A stretch of 40,005 nt of DNA from positions 1 through 40,005 of the IMG/VR virus record IMGVR_UViG_3300049733_000175, one strand, 5' to 3'. The notes beneath the pieces were generated by a model. It was not told where the DNA came from. It saw nothing but the letters and a program-made list of their open reading frames with translations, and did not search any database. The DNA is from a virus. A program made the position numbers and the translations under genes. Every line of letters starts with the position of its first letter. The stretch's first letter is position 1. This document shows positions 3,391 through 40,005 of this stretch, one piece after another.

Positions 3391-5382
3391 TCATGCTGCC
3401 GCTCCGATAGTTGGTGGCACAGCCGCACCGGGCATGCCTTGGGAGGGGTTTCCAATCGCTGCACTCGGGGGAGTGCCACCAGCTTGCTGCTCGGGTGGCT
3501 GCATCGCGCGATCGATGGCCTCACCGAGTTGCAGCATGTAGCGACGCAGGATCTGGAGATTGAACTCCGGCGCTCCGTCCCGCTTCGCTACGAAGTAAGC
3601 CTGGACGAACTGAATCATCGCGGCGGCCTTGTTCATGATGTAGCCGTCGGGCGGGTCGTACTGATAAGGCTCGTCCTCGGTGGCATCCAAGTAGCGCTCG
3701 AGAATGCTCTCGAGATACTCGTACTCGGCATTCTCGCGGTCGACCTCTGCAGCCAGGTCCGGCCATGCGACAAGCCGCTTATAGGTCGCAGGGCTCATCA
3801 GACCTTGCTGGAACGCTTCTGCAACCATCTGCGTCCGACCAGCAGGGTCATCGGGCAGCGCCGAGCCTGCGTAGACCAGGACCACCAGCTTATTCAGATC
3901 CAGTGAAGCCTCGCTCCACTTGATTTCTTTGACTCCGCGTTTGGTCGGGAGCGCGACGGAGAAGTCCTTCCCAGTCGCCTCGCACCATTCGGCAATCGCA
4001 TGGACGAGTTGCTTTGCCTGCTGGACGACGGGTTGCTCGTAGCCGTACTTCGCTTTGATGACGAGCCGCTGTGCGTTCTTGTCGATGAGCATTCGGATCG
4101 CGACGCCTGCGGTGACGTCCTGTTCCTTGCGTGCTGTGGCTCCCGCGAGCGATACACCCGGCGACTCGAAACAGAGCTGGCGCACCAGCGTAATGAACTC
4201 GAGCTCCTGCGGCGTGAACGGCGGTATCTGCGTTTCCACCGGCATCACGTCGCCGTCGACGTTGATGATATTCTCGACCTCGTTTTTCTCGAGCTCTTCC
4301 TCAGCAACGGAGCCGCGTTTGATGAACGTGCGCTTGTTCGCACATAGCACCATGCGTTCCTGCAAGAGCTGCATCGAGCGATTGAACTCCGCAGCTAGGC
4401 TCTTGGTTTCCTCAACAAGCCCAGTGCCCCAGTAGCCGCCACGTTCGCGCGCCCAGCGCCAGACAACAGCCGGATCGCCTCGCGTCCAATCGTCCTCATC
4501 GAGCACGCACTTAGGAATGCAGACGGCGCGAAGCCCCGGCTTATCCTTGCTGATGGGTTTTCGCCACGCGAGCCGGACCTTCACACTCCGAGCGATGCGC
4601 GTCGTCCCGTACTGCTGCAGCGTGACGCTATCGTCGTGCATCGCAGCGTCCTGGATCGCCCAGCGTCGCGCTTCTCGCTCTTCCTCGGTGATGGGCCGCC
4701 ACTCGCCGGCCTTTCCTTCGTCGTCGCGGTCGCGCACCATGATGTCATCGGCATCGACGAACATTGCGATTAGCTTGTCTTCGTCGAACATCTCATGGTC
4801 GAAAAAGTTCAGCGGGTCACCGTTCTCCGCTTCACGGGGATCGACTTTCAGTGAGCCCGGCTTGCGACGTTGGATGATCGCTTTCGGATCACCCATCGAG
4901 TCGTCCACGTAACAGGTCGTGACGCCTGCGCCGCAAATGGTCTCATCGAGAAACACGTCATCGAATAGCTCCCAAGCATTGGCGTACGTGGCTTGTTCCT
5001 GGTGGAACACAGCCTCCACGAGCTGGTCGAGTTTCTTCGCGCGGCGCCGAGTGCGCCAGTCTGCGCCAGTCGTCGAGAACTGCGCCTTGACGCGCTGTCG
5101 TCCTGCGATATCCGCTTGCACCGTATCGCACAAGCTGCGAGCCAGCGGGATGTAGATCTCTTCGTAATACTTGTCCGACTTGTCGTACGCCGCAGCCGTC
5201 AGCGAATCGAGCGGCCGCATTTCGTAGAGCGATGTCAGTAACAGGTATCGGTTCTGCCGCCCCTTCTGGTCAGCTTCTAAACCGTCCGCGATCGCGCAAA
5301 CCTCATGGGCCATCTTTTCGCCCGAGAGTTGATGCCAGCGCGGATGTACCGCGCGCACCCCAGGACGTCTGCCCTCAGCCAC
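3391..5382 (-). CDS. Portal protein
   Basis: This 663-residue protein matches podovirus portals (head-tail connectors), which form the dodecameric ring through which DNA is packaged and ejected. The N-terminal helical part is followed by a wing/stem region with conserved-looking WRTRRRAKKLDQLVE and GYWGTGLVEETKSLAAEFN segments. A long C-terminal helical crown ends in a Pro/Gly-rich tail. The chosen GTG start at 5382 has no clear Shine-Dalgarno; ATG at 5313 (MAHEVCAIADG) is an alternative start. It lies 9 bases after the out-of-frame stop (5392) of the preceding gene, which may couple them. It would cooperate with the terminase encoded upstream. Confidence 0.9.
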   Translation of the reverse strand: MAEGRRPGVRAVHPRWHQLSGEKMAHEVCAIADGLEADQKGRQNRYLLLTSLYEMRPLDSLTAAAYDKSDKYYEEIYIPLARSLCDTVQADIAGRQRVKAQFSTTGADWRTRRRAKKLDQLVEAVFHQEQATYANAWELFDDVFLDETICGAGVTTCYVDDSMGDPKAIIQRRKPGSLKVDPREAENGDPLNFFDHEMFDEDKLIAMFVDADDIMVRDRDDEGKAGEWRPITEEEREARRWAIQDAAMHDDSVTLQQYGTTRIARSVKVRLAWRKPISKDKPGLRAVCIPKCVLDEDDWTRGDPAVVWRWARERGGYWGTGLVEETKSLAAEFNRSMQLLQERMVLCANKRTFIKRGSVAEEELEKNEVENIINVDGDVMPVETQIPPFTPQELEFITLVRQLCFESPGVSLAGATARKEQDVTAGVAIRMLIDKNAQRLVIKAKYGYEQPVVQQAKQLVHAIAEWCEATGKDFSVALPTKRGVKEIKWSEASLDLNKLVVLVYAGSALPDDPAGRTQMVAEAFQQGLMSPATYKRLVAWPDLAAEVDRENAEYEYLESILERYLDATEDEPYQYDPPDGYIMNKAAAMIQFVQAYFVAKRDGAPEFNLQILRRYMLQLGEAIDRAMQPPEQQAGGTPPSAAIGNPSQGMPGAAVPPTIGAAA

Positions 5383-6574: not shown

Positions 6575-7036
6575 TTAGCTCGCGCGGAAGAAGACTCCCG
6601 TGGTCATCTGGATATCGCTGCCATCCGGGGTCACGGCGAAGTCGAACAGCGTTAGCGGGATGATGTTCGAGTCCGTTCCGGCTCCCGTGTCAGCGTCGTA
6701 GCAGACCAAGATCTTGCTGATTGCGTTGCCGGTCGCCGCGGTCCACGTCACCGTCGGAAGCGAGACGTCATAGCGATCGTTACCGTCGTCGGGAGCCGGG
6801 AGCGCAGCGAGCTCGGCTTGCGTGAGCGTCTTACGCCCCATCGTCGTCTGTTCGTTTGTCGCGCCGCTCAATACCGCCGCGAGGTCATCCTTGTCGATCA
6901 GCGTCGCGTCCGACTCGAGGCCCGATGTTTCGATCGGAACAAGGATGAAAGCCGACGGTGATGGATCGTCGCTTTCGACGCGATTGTAGAACTCAACGAT
7001 GCGCCCCTTGGCGATATTGAAAACGATATTTGCCAT
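6575..7036 (-). CDS. Hypothetical virion-associated protein
   Basis: This 153-residue protein opens with MANIVFNIAKGR and an Asn-Arg-Val segment (EFYNRVESDD) that I recall from small conserved phage proteins encoded with structural repeat proteins. It is predicted beta-rich, ending TTGVFFRAS. It lies between terL and the ETDxA-repeat gene, with only a three-base gap to the latter. A repeated AGGTAGGTAGGT just before the ATG can serve as ribosome site. No biochemical role can be assigned; a virion surface or tail component is the likeliest guess. Confidence 0.75.
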   Translation of the reverse strand: MANIVFNIAKGRIVEFYNRVESDDPSPSAFILVPIETSGLESDATLIDKDDLAAVLSGATNEQTTMGRKTLTQAELAALPAPDDGNDRYDVSLPTVTWTAATGNAISKILVCYDADTGAGTDSNIIPLTLFDFAVTPDGSDIQMTTGVFFRAS

Positions 7037-7082
7037 ACCTACCTACCTCAGTGTTGCAGGATGCCACACCCATGTAGGTGAG

Positions 7083-8489
7083 TCACGTGCGACGCTTGCG
7101 CGCCCGCTTCTTGATCTCTTTCTCGCGTTCGGCTCTGACCTTGTCCACCTCGGCCTGTATCCATTCCGGGGTGCCTGGCTTGGGGCCTTCGAACTCGGGG
7201 CGGTAATAAGCTCGAGCGGCTCGCCAGGCATACAGGAGCGCATCGGCCGCGTGGTCCTGGAACCTCTCGTCGAAGCCGTCTCGGTCCTCGTTCCACTGGA
7301 GCACGGCGAGTTCATCCAGTAGCTCCCGGCACTTGAACGGGTCGATGAGCAGCGTCCCGGACAGGAAGTCTCCGCGCAGCATCTCGACGTACGCCATCTT
7401 GTGCTGTTTCTCGGCGTAGTCGACGCCGAGGTTGTAGCGCTGGTTGAACTCCTCTACGTAGCCCTTCCCGAGCGCGCCAGCGTCGGCAACGATGATTCCC
7501 GGCTTGTGTTCACGCTTCCATTTCTCGATGTGGGCTGCGATGGCGCTTGGTATCAAGTGCTGGCGCTTCCAGACTTCGAGCACGTAGATTTTAGGCGACC
7601 CTGGGACGTATCCGAGCAGCACAAATGCGGTCGAGTCCTCATATCCGAGGTCCACTCCCAGGACTTTGACCATGGGGGCCGCAGGATGGTCAGAATACCC
7701 GTTCCGCTCTGCGTCGTATGGATAAACCAGCGATTCGGTATCGTGGACCCAATGCCCGTAATACTCTCGCAGAAACGTAGGATGGTCCTCTGACCAGTTT
7801 CGTTTGACACGGATTTCCTCCCTGTACTTGTCGCCCTTCCCGTTTCGAAAGAACGTGTTCTCCGCCATCGTCCAGTGATGGCAACTCCATGCCGGGATAG
7901 CATGGCCGAAGCCATCATGGTCTAGCCCGGTTGTTACGCTGTGGAAGAATCCTACCGGGATCGGTGATGGTGTGCCGGACACGACCATCGCGCCGTCCAT
8001 GTCACCCAACGCAGGCTCGAGCACTTCCTCGACGGCCTCTTGCAAGTACACGCCGTGGAGCTGCGCTTCGTCCACCTGGATCTCACTGAACTTATGGCCG
8101 CGAAAGTCCTCGAAGGCCTCCCGATGATGCGCGCCGGCAAGCCAGATGCGCGAGCCGTTCGGGCACAGCACATTGAGCCGGCCGTCGACTTCCTTCATGA
8201 CCAAGCCGAGCTCGAAGATGCGCGACAAGTTCATCAGCGCACGGCCCACAATCATGCGCGCGTTGTTCTTGGTCTGCGCGATGTAGAGGCACATCTCGCC
8301 AGGGTGCCTCTCCGCAGCTAGCAGACACCGAATGGCTAACGCGATTGACTTGCCGCTACGTCGACCACAGCATGCCGCGACGCTCTTACTCGCATCGGTC
8401 GCGAACGCGCGCTGTTGAGGGAACGAGGCGGCAACAAACGCCGGCTCCAGTTTGCCGCGCCTTCTTAGCCACGCAGCGGATGCGCGCAC
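7083..8489 (-). CDS. terL: Terminase large subunit
   Basis: This 468-residue ATP-driven packaging motor also cuts concatemers. The N-terminal ATPase shows a Walker A-type CCGRRSGKS (residues 40-48), Walker B IQVDEAQ (137-143) and coupling motif SGTPS (171-175). The C-terminal RNase H-like nuclease shows VLGVDLGYEDS (D280), VADAG (D335) and DHAADALLYAW (D412/D416). The basic tail KKRARKRRT may bind DNA. It starts with GTG at 8489, with no good Shine-Dalgarno, three bases after the HNH stop. Its first 15 codons closely resemble those of the HNH gene, which has the strong ribosome site. TerL synthesis may therefore depend on coupling to the HNH gene. Confidence 0.95.
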   Translation of the reverse strand: MRASAAWLRRRGKLEPAFVAASFPQQRAFATDASKSVAACCGRRSGKSIALAIRCLLAAERHPGEMCLYIAQTKNNARMIVGRALMNLSRIFELGLVMKEVDGRLNVLCPNGSRIWLAGAHHREAFEDFRGHKFSEIQVDEAQLHGVYLQEAVEEVLEPALGDMDGAMVVSGTPSPIPVGFFHSVTTGLDHDGFGHAIPAWSCHHWTMAENTFFRNGKGDKYREEIRVKRNWSEDHPTFLREYYGHWVHDTESLVYPYDAERNGYSDHPAAPMVKVLGVDLGYEDSTAFVLLGYVPGSPKIYVLEVWKRQHLIPSAIAAHIEKWKREHKPGIIVADAGALGKGYVEEFNQRYNLGVDYAEKQHKMAYVEMLRGDFLSGTLLIDPFKCRELLDELAVLQWNEDRDGFDERFQDHAADALLYAWRAARAYYRPEFEGPKPGTPEWIQAEVDKVRAEREKEIKKRARKRRT

Positions 8490-8492
8490 TGA

Positions 8493-9005
8493 CTAACCAG
8501 CTGCGGGATAGTCCCAGACCATCCGCCGAATGATGAGACTTACGAGTGACTCACTGACACCGTGGCGCCTAGCCGCGGAGCGCTGCGTCTCGCCATTCCG
8601 ACAAGCCGTGCGTATTTCACACACCTGTACGTCGGTCAGCTTTGCAAAGACGTTTTGCGCTCCGCACTGCGCTGGAGGCTTCTTCCATCTCTGACGCTCG
8701 ACCATGTCGCGTGTGTTCTGTCGTTTCGTGCCAACGTACAGATGGTCCGGGTTGGCGCAAGATGGCGTGTCGCACTTGTGCAGAACGCACATCCCATCAG
8801 GGATTGGCCCACACTCATCTTCCCACACACGGCGATGTACAAGCCTTGACCGGCCCGCGCCTCGCTTCGCCAGACCATAGCCGCACGTGTTCAGTCCACC
8901 TTCCCATAGGTGGCAGCCGCTCATAGGCTCCGGGATAAGCCGGTCACGATAGTCCATCATCTCAAGCATTCCCCGACGGCGTAACCACGCCGCTGTTGCT
9001 CGCAT
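8493..9005 (-). CDS. HNH homing endonuclease with terL-like N-terminal extension
   Basis: This 170-residue protein has an HNH_3-type nuclease core with CVLHKCDTPSCANPDHLYVG at residues 73-92 (catalytic H76, N85, H88, with surrounding Cys) and W34 upstream. A C-terminal helix-turn-helix (about 122-165: AKLTDVQVCEIR, then SAARRHGVSESLVSLI) should guide DNA recognition. Its first 15 residues, MRATAAWLRRRGMLE, nearly equal the start of TerL (MRASAAWLRRRGKLE). The native HNH start is probably M16 or M17. AAGGAG stands just before the ATG at 9005. This is consistent with an HNH insertion at the 5' end of terL that left a duplicated start. Confidence 0.9.
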   Translation of the reverse strand: MRATAAWLRRRGMLEMMDYRDRLIPEPMSGCHLWEGGLNTCGYGLAKRGAGRSRLVHRRVWEDECGPIPDGMCVLHKCDTPSCANPDHLYVGTKRQNTRDMVERQRWKKPPAQCGAQNVFAKLTDVQVCEIRTACRNGETQRSAARRHGVSESLVSLIIRRMVWDYPAAG

Positions 9006-9354
9006 GTCGCTCCTTCCGCCGATGCTCGTAGATGGCCTCGACCAACGTCATGGCCTTCGAGATGCCGTCCGTCTCCGCGTTGTAATCCTTGAACGCTTCG
9101 GTGAAGTGGTCCCAGAGCCGGATAGCGTTCGCTTCTTTGTAGTCGTCCTGGAACCAACGGAACTGCTCGATGAGTTTGCGGCGCTCGTCTGCCAGCTCAA
9201 CTGTTGGAGCTGGCGCATCCGTATCGAACAGGATGCGATCGAGCGTGAGCGGTGGCGCGTGGAGCTTTCGTAGTCGGTTGCGGGTGAGTTTCATCGGCGT
9301 CTCTTCCTTCACCTGACAGTAAGGCTTGTCGTCGCTGTGGTCCCAGAAGCCCAT
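8962..9354 (-). CDS. Hypothetical protein upstream of the terL locus
   Basis: This 130-residue charged helical protein (MGFWDHSDDKPYCQ... to ...VVTPSGNA) precedes the HNH/TerL pair and overlaps the HNH start by 44 bases. The ATG at 9354 begins one base after the previous stop; a longer form from 9381 is possible but would overlap the preceding gene. Segments such as LADERRKLIEQFRWFQDDYK suggest alpha-helical packing. Its position before terL makes it one of two candidates for a small terminase subunit. It lacks an evident helix-turn-helix, so the gene at 10518-11021 is the better candidate. Confidence 0.75.
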   Translation of the reverse strand: MGFWDHSDDKPYCQVKEETPMKLTRNRLRKLHAPPLTLDRILFDTDAPAPTVELADERRKLIEQFRWFQDDYKEANAIRLWDHFTEAFKDYNAETDGISKAMTLVEAIYEHRRKERHASNSGVVTPSGNA

Positions 9355-9355
9355 G

Positions 9356-9511
9356 CTAATTCCACATCCGCTTCTGCTCACCGAGCACCCGCTTTTCCTC
9401 CACCGTCATCTGAGCGTAGATGCGCTTGAGCGCTTCCAGCTTCGCCTCGCGTTGTGTGTACGTGTAGCCGTAGCAGAGGACCCACAGGGCATCGAGAAGG
9501 CGTCGTCTCAT
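9356..9511 (-). CDS. Small hypothetical protein (51 aa)
   Basis: This gene encodes 51 residues starting MRRRLLDALWVLCYGYTYTQ, followed by a charged helix (REAKLEALKRIYAQMTVEEK). The ATG at 9511 overlaps the stop of the upstream 57-residue gene as ATGA, which favours this short form over a 110-residue reading from TTG at 9688. Its hydrophobic N-terminal stretch is too short to be a confident membrane segment. No function recognised. Confidence 0.6.
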   Translation of the reverse strand: MRRRLLDALWVLCYGYTYTQREAKLEALKRIYAQMTVEEKRVLGEQKRMWN

Positions 9512-9681
9512 CCCCGATACCCCCAGAGCGTGAAGTTCATAGATTTCCGCAACTGGAACCACATCGCTTTCATCTCTGTTCGCTTGCACCTCAAGAACGC
9601 CCATACCGCCGGACGATTGCGGTTCGAGCGACCAAGCCGTGGCTGTTGCAGCCGGCGGAGTTGTCGCGCGTGTTTGCTCAC
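9508..9681 (-). CDS. Small basic hypothetical protein (57 aa)
   Basis: GTG at 9681 overlaps the stop of the co-chaperonin gene as GTGA, and the stop overlaps the next ATG as ATGA. Both junctions follow the pattern seen throughout this genome. The product is very basic (MSKHARQLRRLQQPRLGRSN at the start) and aromatic at its end (FTLWGYRG). It may bind nucleic acid, but no family is recognised. Evidence is junction architecture only. Confidence 0.55.
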   Translation of the reverse strand: MSKHARQLRRLQQPRLGRSNRNRPAVWAFLRCKRTEMKAMWFQLRKSMNFTLWGYRG

Positions 9682-10082
9682 GACTCAACCACCGCCAAAA
9701 GCTCCGCCTCCCTCACCAACCGATGCTCCACCCCGTCCACGAAGATGACCTCTCCGACCTGTCTCCCATCGACGATCACGCGATCGCCCGGCTTCACTCC
9801 CATCGGATACGGATTCTTGGCCTTACCGCACTCGCCACACTTCGCGCTGTAGCTCGGTCCGGGGCCAGCAGCGACCACGATGGCCGCACGTCCGTCGATT
9901 GCTCGCGCGTAGTCGTTCCGAGGCAACGCTACGAGTCCGCTCTCGGTCGTCTCCGGTATCTCTTCCCAGCGGATCAAAACGTTATCGTTGCGCGGTTGGA
10001 CATCCCCCTCGACGTACTCGAAGTCGTAGTGGACGCCATCGACCTCGTAGAGTCCGCGTCCTGCGCTGTCCTTCTGGGTCAT
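9678..10082 (-). CDS. GroES-like co-chaperonin (Cpn10 family)
   Basis: This 134-residue protein aligns with GroES along its core. VQPRNDNVLIRWEEIPETTE (residues 28-47) matches the first strand and the start of the mobile loop. SGLVAL (48-53) sits where the GroEL-binding loop tripeptide lies. VVAAGPG (69-75), VKPGDRVIVD (96-105) and VREAELLAVVES (123-134) match the rest. A 25-residue N-terminal extension and a CGEC insertion (82-87) in the roof-loop region differ from bacterial Cpn10. It probably caps the host GroEL to fold a virion protein, as T4 gp31 does for its capsid. Overlaps both neighbours in the late operon; start ATG at 10082 within ATGA. Confidence 0.85.
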   Translation of the reverse strand: MTQKDSAGRGLYEVDGVHYDFEYVEGDVQPRNDNVLIRWEEIPETTESGLVALPRNDYARAIDGRAAIVVAAGPGPSYSAKCGECGKAKNPYPMGVKPGDRVIVDGRQVGEVIFVDGVEHRLVREAELLAVVES

Positions 10083-10360
10083 CGACTTCTCACCTTTCGC
10101 TTTTCCTTCGGGGTGTCCTTCAGCGCCCAGCCATCGCCGTTGTCAGGTGCCAGCTCCGGCATTGGCGGCACCTCATCGATCGGCATCCCAGTCCCATAGC
10201 TCGTGTGTGTGAACCACACCTTGGTGCCACGTGCAACGATGAGCACGCCTTCGAATAGTTGGATCTCTGTCACGCCATCGCGACCCACCGCAACGTTCTG
10301 CACTGGCATCCCCGCGACCTGGATCGCATGCGGGTGGAATTGGAATTCTTGGAGTTTCAC
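10079..10360 (-). CDS. Hypothetical protein (93 aa)
   Basis: This protein starts with GTG at 10360 (KLQEFQFHPHAIQ follows). The GTG overlaps the stop of the 53-residue gene upstream as GTGA and is preceded by GGGAGG. The sequence is beta-rich in the first two thirds (VQNVAVGRDGVTEIQLFEG) with a basic C-terminal tail (KEKRKVRSR). It is coupled to the co-chaperonin gene by ATGA. No family recognised. It might be a partner or substrate of the co-chaperonin, which is speculation from position. Confidence 0.7.
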   Translation of the reverse strand: MKLQEFQFHPHAIQVAGMPVQNVAVGRDGVTEIQLFEGVLIVARGTKVWFTHTSYGTGMPIDEVPPMPELAPDNGDGWALKDTPKEKRKVRSR

Positions 10361-10518
10361 ATTCCCTCCCAGTGGCAGCCACGCCTCGCCCAATCATCAG
10401 CCATCGCTTTGAGCCATCTCGTCTCGCGTTCAATCATCGCCTCTTCCCATGCATCACGCGGCGGTGCATCCGCAATCGGTTCCACTTCTACAGGCTGTCC
10501 GTATGCATCGAAGACCAT
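10357..10518 (-). CDS. Small hypothetical protein (53 aa)
   Basis: This reading frame runs from ATG at 10518, which shares one base with the stop of the TerS-like gene (TGATG), to a TGA overlapping the next GTG. The product starts MVFDAYGQPVEVEPIADAPP, followed by a charged helix (DAWEEAMIERETRWLKAM). It is acidic and Trp-containing. The perfect tiling between its neighbours is the evidence that it is real. Function unknown. Confidence 0.65.
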   Translation of the reverse strand: MVFDAYGQPVEVEPIADAPPRDAWEEAMIERETRWLKAMADDWARRGCHWEGM

Positions 10519-11021
10519 CACTCCACCGCTTCCCCCTCCGTCAGCAACGCCACATCCGCGCTCTCACTCTGCAAGAACGCGATTGCCTTCGCACGCAACG
10601 CCGGATCGCTCCGGATCTCGGTCATGCACAACACGAACAGCTCCGCGTCGCTTCGGTTACTGAGTTCGACCTTGTGCTCGTGACGCTGGACGATGCCGCC
10701 GACGGTTTCGATCAGGAGCTTGGCAGCCGGAACGCGGTCCGGTCCAAACTGGTCGATCCACTGGGCCGCTCGGTTCCGAACCATCTGAAGCACGTGCTCG
10801 CGCTGCCCCAGAAGCTCGAGATGCCTAGATGCCTGAGCCGCGTACTCCTCGGTGCTCTTGACCGAAAGTCCCCAGTCGGCGGCGAGCTCGCGGGATGTGA
10901 CGCCGCGCTCGTACAAGCCACTGGCCATCAACTCGATGACGTACCGAACCCGAGCCGAAACAGTGTCCTGGCGAGGATGAATCTCGCGTGTGACCTGGTC
11001 CAGTTGTTCGGCGGCGCTCAT
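10518..11021 (-). CDS. Putative terminase small subunit
   Basis: This 167-residue protein is the first gene of the late operon. Residues about 22-72 form a helix-turn-helix-like unit (GVTSRELAADWGLSVKSTEE) like those that let TerS recognise pac or cos DNA. A long helical middle (about 73-125) could form the oligomeric ring, and an acidic C-terminus (SADVALLTEGEAVE) could contact TerL. I chose ATG at 11021 because the longer frame runs into the divergent plus-strand gene and is Arg/Pro-rich. Unusually, terL lies about 2 kb downstream, with seven genes in between. An alternative is a transcriptional regulator. Confidence 0.6.
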   Translation of the reverse strand: MSAAEQLDQVTREIHPRQDTVSARVRYVIELMASGLYERGVTSRELAADWGLSVKSTEEYAAQASRHLELLGQREHVLQMVRNRAAQWIDQFGPDRVPAAKLLIETVGGIVQRHEHKVELSNRSDAELFVLCMTEIRSDPALRAKAIAFLQSESADVALLTEGEAVE

Positions 11022-11038
11022 CGTGCTTCCATTCCACC

Positions 11039-11380
11039 ATGCGTTCGGGGTTCCCGCTGGTCCTGTTGGCTTTGAGCTGCTCGGGCGGCACCACCGAATC
11101 CGAGGCCTACGAGCCCCGGGGAGAGGTTTTGGGTCCGCAACCCGACTTCGTCCCCGTCTGTACCGCAAACTGCGTCCTGAGCCATCCTGACCTGGCTGGC
11201 GGCGGTCCGTACTGCTGGTCCCTCGATGAGGCCAGCTGCAACGCCGCTCCCGGTGGCTGGATTACCCGAGTTCCAGCATGTGGCGAATCCGACCTGTGGC
11301 TTCAGAAGTGCGCTTGGAACCCAAGCGGAGGCTGCGTCATCGGGCCGATGTTCGTGAAGTGGCAGACTTGTGAGCCGTAG
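11039..11380 (+). CDS. Cysteine-rich putative lipoprotein (moron candidate)
   Basis: This 113-residue protein stands alone on the plus strand between two minus-strand operons. A short signal (MRSGFPLVLLALSCSGG) ends in an imperfect lipobox, ALSC. The mature part carries seven further cysteines (for example PVCTANCVLSH and WLQKCAW), compatible with disulfides in an exported protein. Its gene is divergent from the TerS-like gene by 17 bases, and its stop is two bases from the convergent gene's stop. No clear promoter or ribosome site was seen. Isolation and orientation suggest a moron, perhaps expressed in the lysogen at the cell surface. Function unknown. Confidence 0.65.
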   Translation: MRSGFPLVLLALSCSGGTTESEAYEPRGEVLGPQPDFVPVCTANCVLSHPDLAGGGPYCWSLDEASCNAAPGGWITRVPACGESDLWLQKCAWNPSGGCVIGPMFVKWQTCEP

Positions 11381-11382
11381 TT

Positions 11383-11628
11383 TCATCGCTGCCCTTTCGT
11401 CTCATCCTGACTCAGCACGGAAGCACACAGCGTAGCCATAACCGGCGACGGAACAATCAGCGGGCCATCCAGCGGCGGCTCAAGCGCATACTTCAGCCAC
11501 TTCGCCGCCAAGCTACTCACCCTCGCCGAGCTCTGCTTGCGGGGTTTCTTTTTGGTTTTGCGTTTTGCTTTGAAAGTCACCTTGTAAGCCCCAGAGGCGG
11601 TTGTGATTATGTTGCTTTTGCGTTTCAC
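11383..11628 (-). CDS. Basic hypothetical protein (81 aa)
   Basis: This is the last gene of the early minus operon. GTG at 11628 overlaps the upstream stop as GTGA. The N-terminal half is extremely basic (FKAKRKTKKKPRKQSSAR), suggesting nucleic acid binding or disorder. The C-terminal half is mixed (LAAKWLKYALEPPLDG). The longer 165-residue reading overlaps two well-supported genes and was not used. No family recognised. Confidence 0.6.
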   Translation of the reverse strand: MKRKSNIITTASGAYKVTFKAKRKTKKKPRKQSSARVSSLAAKWLKYALEPPLDGPLIVPSPVMATLCASVLSQDETKGQR

Positions 11629-23640: not shown

Positions 23641-23822
23641 CGCTTCCGCCTCGCATCCAGCATCGCTTGCGCATCAGCCCTCAAGGCCATGAGCTGCCCA
23701 TCTTGCAAGCGGCGCGAGGCTTCCTTCATGGCGATCGAGCGCTCGTCGTCGTCCTCTAGACGCGACTCGATGAACTTCAGAGCCAGAATGAATGCTTCGG
23801 CACCGACTTCTAACGGGCTCAT
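23637..23822 (-). CDS. Small helical hypothetical protein (61 aa)
   Basis: This 61-residue acidic/basic helical protein (SPLEVGAEAFILALKFIESR; RRLQDGQLMALRADAQAMLD) is the first minus-strand gene after the inserted HNH gene, 18 bases from the predicted HNH start. No family recognised. Confidence 0.7.
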   Translation of the reverse strand: MSPLEVGAEAFILALKFIESRLEDDDERSIAMKEASRRLQDGQLMALRADAQAMLDARRKR

Positions 23823-23839
23823 GTGCTACCTTTCACATA

Positions 23840-24490
23840 ATGTTGACACCGGGATGCATAGAGAAAGTCTGCCGAGCCTGCCTCACTGCCAAACCAGCTA
23901 CTAGCGAGTACTTCTACTTTTCGGCTCGCTCGCGAGACATGTGCCGGGCTGTCTGCCGCGCTTGCTGGTGGGATGACTGCAGAGGCCTGCTTCCGAAGCG
24001 CCCCAAGGTCAAGAGGGCGCCCTCGCCTAAGCCGCCCAGGCCGTCCGCCGCAGATAGGTTCTGGGCAAAGGTTGCGAAGACGGACACCTGTTGGCTGTGG
24101 ACTGGATGCCTCAACAGCACAGGCTATGGGTCGTTCAGGGCGCGGAAGGGACAGGTGGTCCTGGCACACAGATTCGCGTGGACGCTTACACACGGTCCGA
24201 CCGAGCTTTGCGTGCTGCACCATTGTGACAACCCCCCGTGCGTGAATCCGCAACATCTGTTCGTTGGAACCCTCATGGATAACGCAAGGGACCGAGACGC
24301 GAAGGGGCGCGGAGGAGCATGCCGCGGCGAGGCAAACCCCAACGCGAAACTGACGGCCGGAACGGTGAGAGCGATTCGGGCGGCGTACGCAAGTGGCAGA
24401 ACTCAGGTCTCGGTTGCGGCTGAGTTTGGCATCCGCCAGACGGACGTTTCTAAACTGGTGCGCCGCGAGTCCTGGAAACACGTCGTCTAG
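23840..24490 (+). CDS. HNH homing endonuclease with N-terminal zinc finger, antisense in the late operon
   Basis: The preferred 216-residue form starts at ATG 23840; ATG 23792 would run into the opposing gene. N-terminal cysteines (CRACLTAK, DMCRAVCRAC, residues about 11-42) resemble a zinc finger. The HNH_3 core is CVLHHCDNPPCVNPQHLFVG with an upstream TCWLWTGCLN. A C-terminal helix-turn-helix follows (AKLTAGTVRAIRAAYASGRT, SVAAEFGIRQTDVSKLVRRE). It is the only plus-strand gene between 21.8 and 40 kb and interrupts the late operon, as expected of a free-standing homing endonuclease. It is related in layout, not closely in sequence, to the HNH at 8493-9005. Confidence 0.85.
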   Translation: MLTPGCIEKVCRACLTAKPATSEYFYFSARSRDMCRAVCRACWWDDCRGLLPKRPKVKRAPSPKPPRPSAADRFWAKVAKTDTCWLWTGCLNSTGYGSFRARKGQVVLAHRFAWTLTHGPTELCVLHHCDNPPCVNPQHLFVGTLMDNARDRDAKGRGGACRGEANPNAKLTAGTVRAIRAAYASGRTQVSVAAEFGIRQTDVSKLVRRESWKHVV

Positions 24491-39885: not shown

Positions 39886-40005
39886 GCTCAACCTCCCACG
39901 CAGGCTTTGACCGCTCTCCAGAAGGCTTCCATGCGCGCCGGGTCGCCTTCGAGCTCCGGCATAAACTTGATCGCCTCATCCTCGAAGTCAGGCGGAATGG
40001 AGTAG
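39886..40005. repeat. Terminal direct repeat, right copy
   Basis: Exact second copy of bases 1-120. It marks the contig as circular, with a unit length of 39,885 bp. Confidence 0.95.
39888..40005 (-). CDS. Partial second copy of the gene at 3-221
   Basis: This is the C-terminal part of the 72-residue acidic protein, repeated because the contig ends overlap. The start lies beyond the window end. It does not represent a second gene if the molecule is circular. Confidence 0.9.
   Translation of the reverse strand, partial: YSIPPDFEDEAIKFMPELEGDPARMEAFWRAVKACVGG

Follow-up and report, generated by a model that had tools for sequence, protein, structure and literature searches.

An HNH endonuclease gene that begins with a diverged copy of the start of the adjoining phage terminase gene: a putative homing endonuclease at a duplicated gene end

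We analysed a 40,005-nucleotide stretch of viral DNA (IMG/VR record IMGVR_UViG_3300049733_000175, referred to here as the window), in which a gene for an HNH_3 endonuclease lies directly upstream of terL, the gene for the terminase large subunit, both on the minus strand. The ends of the window carry identical 120-nt direct repeats (1–120 and 39886–40005), which indicate that the record is probably a complete circular genome. The endonuclease gene (8493–9005, ATG at 9005) encodes a protein of 170 residues that matches PF13392 (E 7e-15; 54.8 bits against a cut-off of 24.8) and keeps the conserved H, C, D and N positions of the HNH_3 catalytic domain. Its C-terminus is HTH-like, with weak HTH matches that fall below the cut-offs. 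terL (7083–8489, GTG at 8489) encodes 468 residues matching PF03237 and PF17289 (Terminase_6N/6C) and PHROG 2. The terL reading frame is uninterrupted, and positions 7000–11500 gave no credible Rfam match to a group I intron. A second HNH_3 gene, 43% identical to the first, is located at 23792–24490 on the plus strand, opposite to its neighbours; no copy of a neighbouring gene was noticed at its start.

The first 15 codons of terL are present twice, once at the start of terL itself (8445–8489, minus strand) and once as the in-frame N-terminus of the endonuclease (8961–9005, minus strand). The N-terminus encoded by the HNH gene is MRATAAWLRRRGMLE and that encoded by terL is MRASAAWLRRRGKLE. The initial annotation, made from the letters alone, had described this duplication, and both its positions and its sequences are borne out, with 30 of the 45 nucleotides identical. 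The similarity extends from the start codon to codon 15 or 16, and the start codons themselves also differ (ATG in the HNH gene, GTG in terL). The signals for translation are distributed between the copies as the annotation had it. A Shine-Dalgarno-like AAGGAG (9010–9015) precedes the HNH ATG by 4 bases, and an orphan ORF upstream (8962–9354, minus strand, ATG at 9354, 130 residues), whose stop at 8962 falls inside the HNH copy, runs into the start of the HNH gene. The terL GTG follows the HNH stop after a gap of three bases (8490–8492), and no Shine-Dalgarno sequence is visible before it. Homologue searches with the orphan ORF returned no match. The orphan ORF lies between the HNH gene and the 3′ part of a homologue (9356–9532, minus strand) of a 54-aa gene, which directly precedes terL in the relative described below.

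Scans of IMG/VR with the single sequences of TerL, the HNH protein and the upstream ORF yielded no usable relative, and a scan of GTDB with TerL gave no match. When the codons of the shared N-terminus were written as a degenerate pattern and IMG/VR was scanned with it, one relative, L021, was recovered. The TerL of L021 (2811–4256) is 70% identical to that of the window, and the first 29 residues are the same. Over the full 7.2 kb, L021 and the window are collinear apart from the interval between the 54-aa gene, which forms the left edge of the synteny break, and terL: the window has the orphan ORF and the HNH gene at this position, whereas L021 has a single base. Thus, the two genomes differ at one site in the presence of the HNH gene. 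Since L021 has the identical TerL start without an HNH gene, this N-terminus can be assigned to terL, and the HNH region to an insertion at the terL 5′ end, as had been proposed; loss of this region in L021 would account for the difference less simply. Because L021 lacks the orphan ORF as well, the two genomes are more than one event apart. An empty allele from a close relative of the window phage was absent from the collections searched, the TerL of L021 being only 70% identical. In more distant TerL relatives (L026–L031, 26–34% identity), the N-termini before the FPQQRAF motif are unrelated and, therefore, do not date the duplication. The identity of 29 residues in proteins that are 70% identical overall, together with their absence from these distant relatives, suggests that the TerL N-terminus is strongly selected.

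The terL of L021 also starts with GTG, without a Shine-Dalgarno sequence, one base past the stop of the upstream gene. Coupling of terL to an upstream gene thus predates the HNH gene or is independent of it, and the suggestion that the insertion created a weak new terL start, and with it a new dependence on the gene upstream, is not supported. Instead, the HNH gene appears, from the comparison of the two sequences, to have replaced the former upstream coupling partner of terL. L021 also contains a short ORF (1841–2026) that resembles the start of an HNH protein (RFWNCVDIGENTDVCWKWTG) and lacks a Pfam match; it is possibly a decayed HNH gene.

We gathered HNH_3 loci from IMG/VR, GTDB genomes and phage records, which provided 221 distinct HNH genes with a neighbour. 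The N-terminus of each HNH protein was compared with the start of the directly downstream gene, using mispaired loci as the control and a score of at least 32 as the threshold. Eight of the 221 HNH genes (seven non-tandem and one tandem HNH) reached this score, against 0.4–0.55 expected from the mispaired controls. All seven non-tandem matches are in the HNH reading frame, and the other two frames gave none scoring 30 or more. Besides terL in the window, the downstream genes encode RusA-like proteins (L138, and L035, where the assignment is by sequence and without a Pfam match), an SSB (L060), a helicase (L051) and unknown proteins of 164 (L122) and 123 residues (L159). A DNA-level test added L117 as a further gene-start case. 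The start of the downstream gene is offset from the HNH gene end by 3 bases in the downstream direction, or by 4 or 11 bases in the upstream direction. In the other cases as well, the differences between the copies are largely synonymous, with 8 synonymous and 5 non-synonymous differences in L122, 5 and 0 in L035, and 5 and 2 in L159. Among HNH-free relatives, the SSB of Stenotrophomonas phage CUB19 has its own matching N-terminus, and the likeness of the downstream-gene N-terminus in Azospirillum phage Cd is weaker. No other HNH protein found carries the TerL N-terminus; those with copied starts carry the N-termini of their own neighbours. Neither of the two findings that the initial annotation had named as contrary to its reading was therefore obtained. 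Eleven annotated HNH genes of isolate phages were considered: ten, adjoining endonuclease I, DNA polymerase or SSB genes, have no clear N-terminal copy, and the eleventh (L190) is a 3′ case. Several candidates were rejected as survey cases, namely tandem HNH genes (L179, L163), repeated or shared HNH-type domains (L177, L032, L088), a self-overlap (L096), and L169 together with low-complexity matches. L050 was rejected as a 5′ case, as it is actually a duplication of a 3′ end.

The DNA-level test identified three duplicated 3′ gene ends (L050, L190 and L255). The 3′-terminal codons of the gene that precedes HNH, NATPPPLAAAVFRSLI in L050 (~3858–4434) and NPWVWVLSFRR in L255 (4145–4784), are repeated behind the HNH gene, as in the fungal mobile ORFs discussed below. 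The third case is a site in Klebsiella Drulisvirus represented by 248 records, only one of which covers at least 80% of the HNH-bearing query. In the empty alleles (L314, L315, L317 and L318), the DNA polymerase ends with AEMGTSMYSKEKVE. In phage pKP-M186-2.2 (L190, 1464–1965), the 3′ end of the polymerase gene is the site of an HNH gene, and the polymerase ends with CEMGVSMYAKEKIE, encoded by DNA that is identical to the empty alleles at 28–29 of 45 positions. The last codons of the HNH gene are the displaced native end (42–43 of 45 identical to the empty alleles), so that a recoded polymerase 3′ end is followed by HNH and then by the native 3′ end, which is displaced and continues the HNH reading frame. 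The flanks match the empty alleles at 110–117 of 120 positions upstream and at up to 56 of 60 downstream. Henu2_3 (L316) has the same recoded end (43 of 45) before an HNH gene with a broken frame; here, the displaced end and the sequence downstream of it agree with the SU552A/KpV475 background. As the same recoded end and HNH gene occur in two backgrounds, they behave as one cassette. On the evidence of these alignments, the two polymerase ends demonstrably derive from different alleles. Drulisvirus is the clearest evidence of polarity, but it is a 3′ case, whereas the window is a 5′ case. The idea that HNH genes insert at gene ends with duplication of the end is supported by seven other 5′ cases and three 3′ cases.

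We consider it probable that the window contains a putative free-standing homing endonuclease gene that went in close to the end of another gene, and that a diverged allele supplied the second copy of that end. This reading draws on direct observations: the anatomy of the locus, the HNH-free allele, selection at the protein level (see below), the recurrence at other genes and the 3′ version in Drulisvirus. The HNH gene would have entered the 5′ end of terL such that the first 15 codons now exist twice. The fused copy would provide HNH with a complete initiation region (Shine-Dalgarno sequence, ATG and first codons), so that HNH would be translated from a terL-type start, and the other copy would restart terL directly past the HNH stop, leaving TerL complete and probably made by termination-reinitiation. 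Two diverged terL alleles may have been joined by double-strand-break repair when HNH entered, or re-entered, the site. The nuclease is predicted to cut the uninterrupted gene end, near codon 15 in terL. Repair from an HNH-bearing genome would then insert HNH (homing), and the synonymous differences would spare the restored intact copy from cutting.

The divergence of the two copies bears on the main alternative, namely that the terL 5′ end simply duplicated in tandem long ago in a single lineage, and that both copies, one of them fused to HNH, have drifted since. Codons 2–15 contain 14 nucleotide differences, which result in only 2 residue differences (T/S and M/K). When one copy was randomly mutated to 14 differences in 20,000 neutral trials, ∼8 residue changes were expected, and 2 or fewer were reached in none of the trials. 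Thus, the copies diverged mostly while encoding a selected peptide, and the earlier description of them as mostly synonymous, and either old or derived from different phages, is upheld. This pattern is compatible with two terL alleles from different phages, or with an N-terminus selected within HNH, and does not fit a freely drifting duplicate. The anatomy is compatible with a tandem duplication, and the three available sequences (HNH copy, window terL and L021, with 9, 4 and 5 unique sites, respectively, the HNH copy being the longest branch) do not give a rooted tree. However, neutral drift of the HNH copy predicts about four times the residue changes seen, and the Drulisvirus ends come from different alleles. 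We therefore regard a tandem duplication as unlikely.

A second alternative is functional mimicry, in which HNH retains a TerL N-terminus so that the nuclease can bind TerS or the portal of the packaging machinery and cleave DNA at that place. The strong conservation of the first 29 residues between the two TerLs and the retention of 12 of 14 residues in the HNH copy would agree with such a role, and HNH proteins encoded beside a terminase gene are able to function in packaging (Kala et al. 2014, cited in PMC4351075 and discussed in PMC10448857). Nevertheless, where an HNH gene adjoins a gene for an SSB, a RusA-like protein, a helicase or an unknown protein, it carries the start of that neighbour, so that position, not packaging, is the common factor. 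In addition, an AlphaFold2 model of the HNH protein has a core mostly above pLDDT 90, whereas residues 1–20, including the copied segment, have values of 59–66; the modelled tail lies outside the confident core, compatible with a passenger. Mimicry thus seems very improbable. It is less credible still that the protein belongs with HK97 gp74 among the packaging-associated nucleases, whose genes normally adjoin terL, and that its N-terminal likeness is incidental: its position directly upstream of terL would be as expected, but the syntenic relative L021 lacks it, so that HNH is not kept with the terminase module even where the neighbouring genes are otherwise collinear, the protein is of the HNH_3/HTH homing type, and the likeness is far beyond chance. 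Finally, chance or compositional similarity of two N-termini rich in Arg and Ala is refuted, since the HNH/terL pair (12 of 14) is the best of all pairs among the 807 candidate ORF starts in the window, ahead of a repeat family (11 of 14) and of all remaining pairs (8 or fewer), and the codon pattern of the shared N-terminus occurs only at these two places in the window and in none of 100 shuffles.

Phage homing endonuclease genes (HEGs) near terminase genes and terminal duplications in fungal mitochondria are both already known. Mobile ORFs (mORFs) with carboxy-terminal duplications have been described for atp6 of Allomyces and for atp6, atp9, cox2 and nad3 of Glomus; the atp6 copies are 63.5% identical in DNA and 91% in protein, and the terminal segment is thought to be foreign (PMC3630166). 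As in those systems, the HNH ORF of the window is flanked by two diverged copies of one gene's terminal segment: an endonuclease ORF at a gene end, the end present twice, mostly synonymous divergence and an in-phase fusion are common to both. The fungal elements encode LAGLIDADG or GIY-YIG enzymes and occupy 3′ ends in mitochondria, whereas the window has a phage HNH_3 gene at a 5′ end, with the restored gene probably translation-coupled. By analogy, the arrangement in the window is the phage counterpart of these mORFs; it would work like one and is not classed as a member, since it is an HNH_3 gene in a phage. The Drulisvirus cassette, viewed in the same way, corresponds to the pattern reported for the fungal elements (PMC3630166). 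A similar pattern at N-termini has been reported for Tremella introns (PMC7315562), where a host-gene segment is duplicated at a mobile element and the model is replacement by a foreign gene fragment; those introns splice, whereas no intron was found in the window region. Among phages, the accounts of T4 seg/mob genes, ICP1 HEGs and skunavirus HNHEs (PMC2988022, PMC10448857, PMC12724721), in the portions consulted, describe free-standing genes that, like the HNH gene here, adjoin essential genes, and the region upstream of terminase is described as an HEG hot spot (PMC10448857). Unlike the window, the cases in those portions are intergenic insertions or split genes without a duplicated, recoded gene end. 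In an incomplete search of open-access full texts, no account came up of a phage HEG with a gene end that is both duplicated and recoded.

The recurrence of the arrangement suggests that such nucleases repeatedly become established in essential genes by this route and leave them intact. Beyond this, we tentatively propose, as a conjecture that is quite possible though short of likely, that phage HNH homing endonucleases, when they move into an essential gene, commonly bring a naturally recoded end of that gene with them, in natural analogy to a nuclease linked to a rescue copy of its own. Cutting would force repair from the nuclease-bearing genome, the recoded end would keep the gene both working and uncuttable, the synonymous differences would reflect selection for cleavage resistance, and the displaced native end would become the start or end of the nuclease itself. 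The insertion model addresses the open question of how a free-standing homing endonuclease can reside inside an essential phage gene without an intron, an intein or breakage; the suggested answer, a duplicated and recoded gene end, is found at unrelated genes and at both gene ends. If it is right, the duplicated segment would predict the target site of each nuclease from its sequence alone. Annotators should be aware that errors can arise in reading the N- or C-terminus of such a nuclease and in placing the start of the gene that follows it.

A related arrangement is found in the Cluster O mycobacteriophages (Corndog, Firecracker and YungJamal), in which an HNH gene precedes tmp, the tmp peptides set in past an ACG codon where a conventional start codon is missing, and the displaced tmp is still expressed, as determined by LC-MS/MS (PMC4351075). 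As in the window, HNH takes the start codon of an essential gene, which restarts just past the HNH stop; the difference is that no codons are duplicated and ACG replaces ATG. Comparison of Dylan (L311, position 1323), which has the empty site, with Firecracker (L312, 312–945) indicates that HNH took the tmp ATG together with upstream sequence. The Firecracker tmp is left with ACG-GCA-ATA-CAT a few bases past the HNH stop, and capture of the tmp start by HNH offers a simple reading of the published puzzle of the Corndog-like tmp start.
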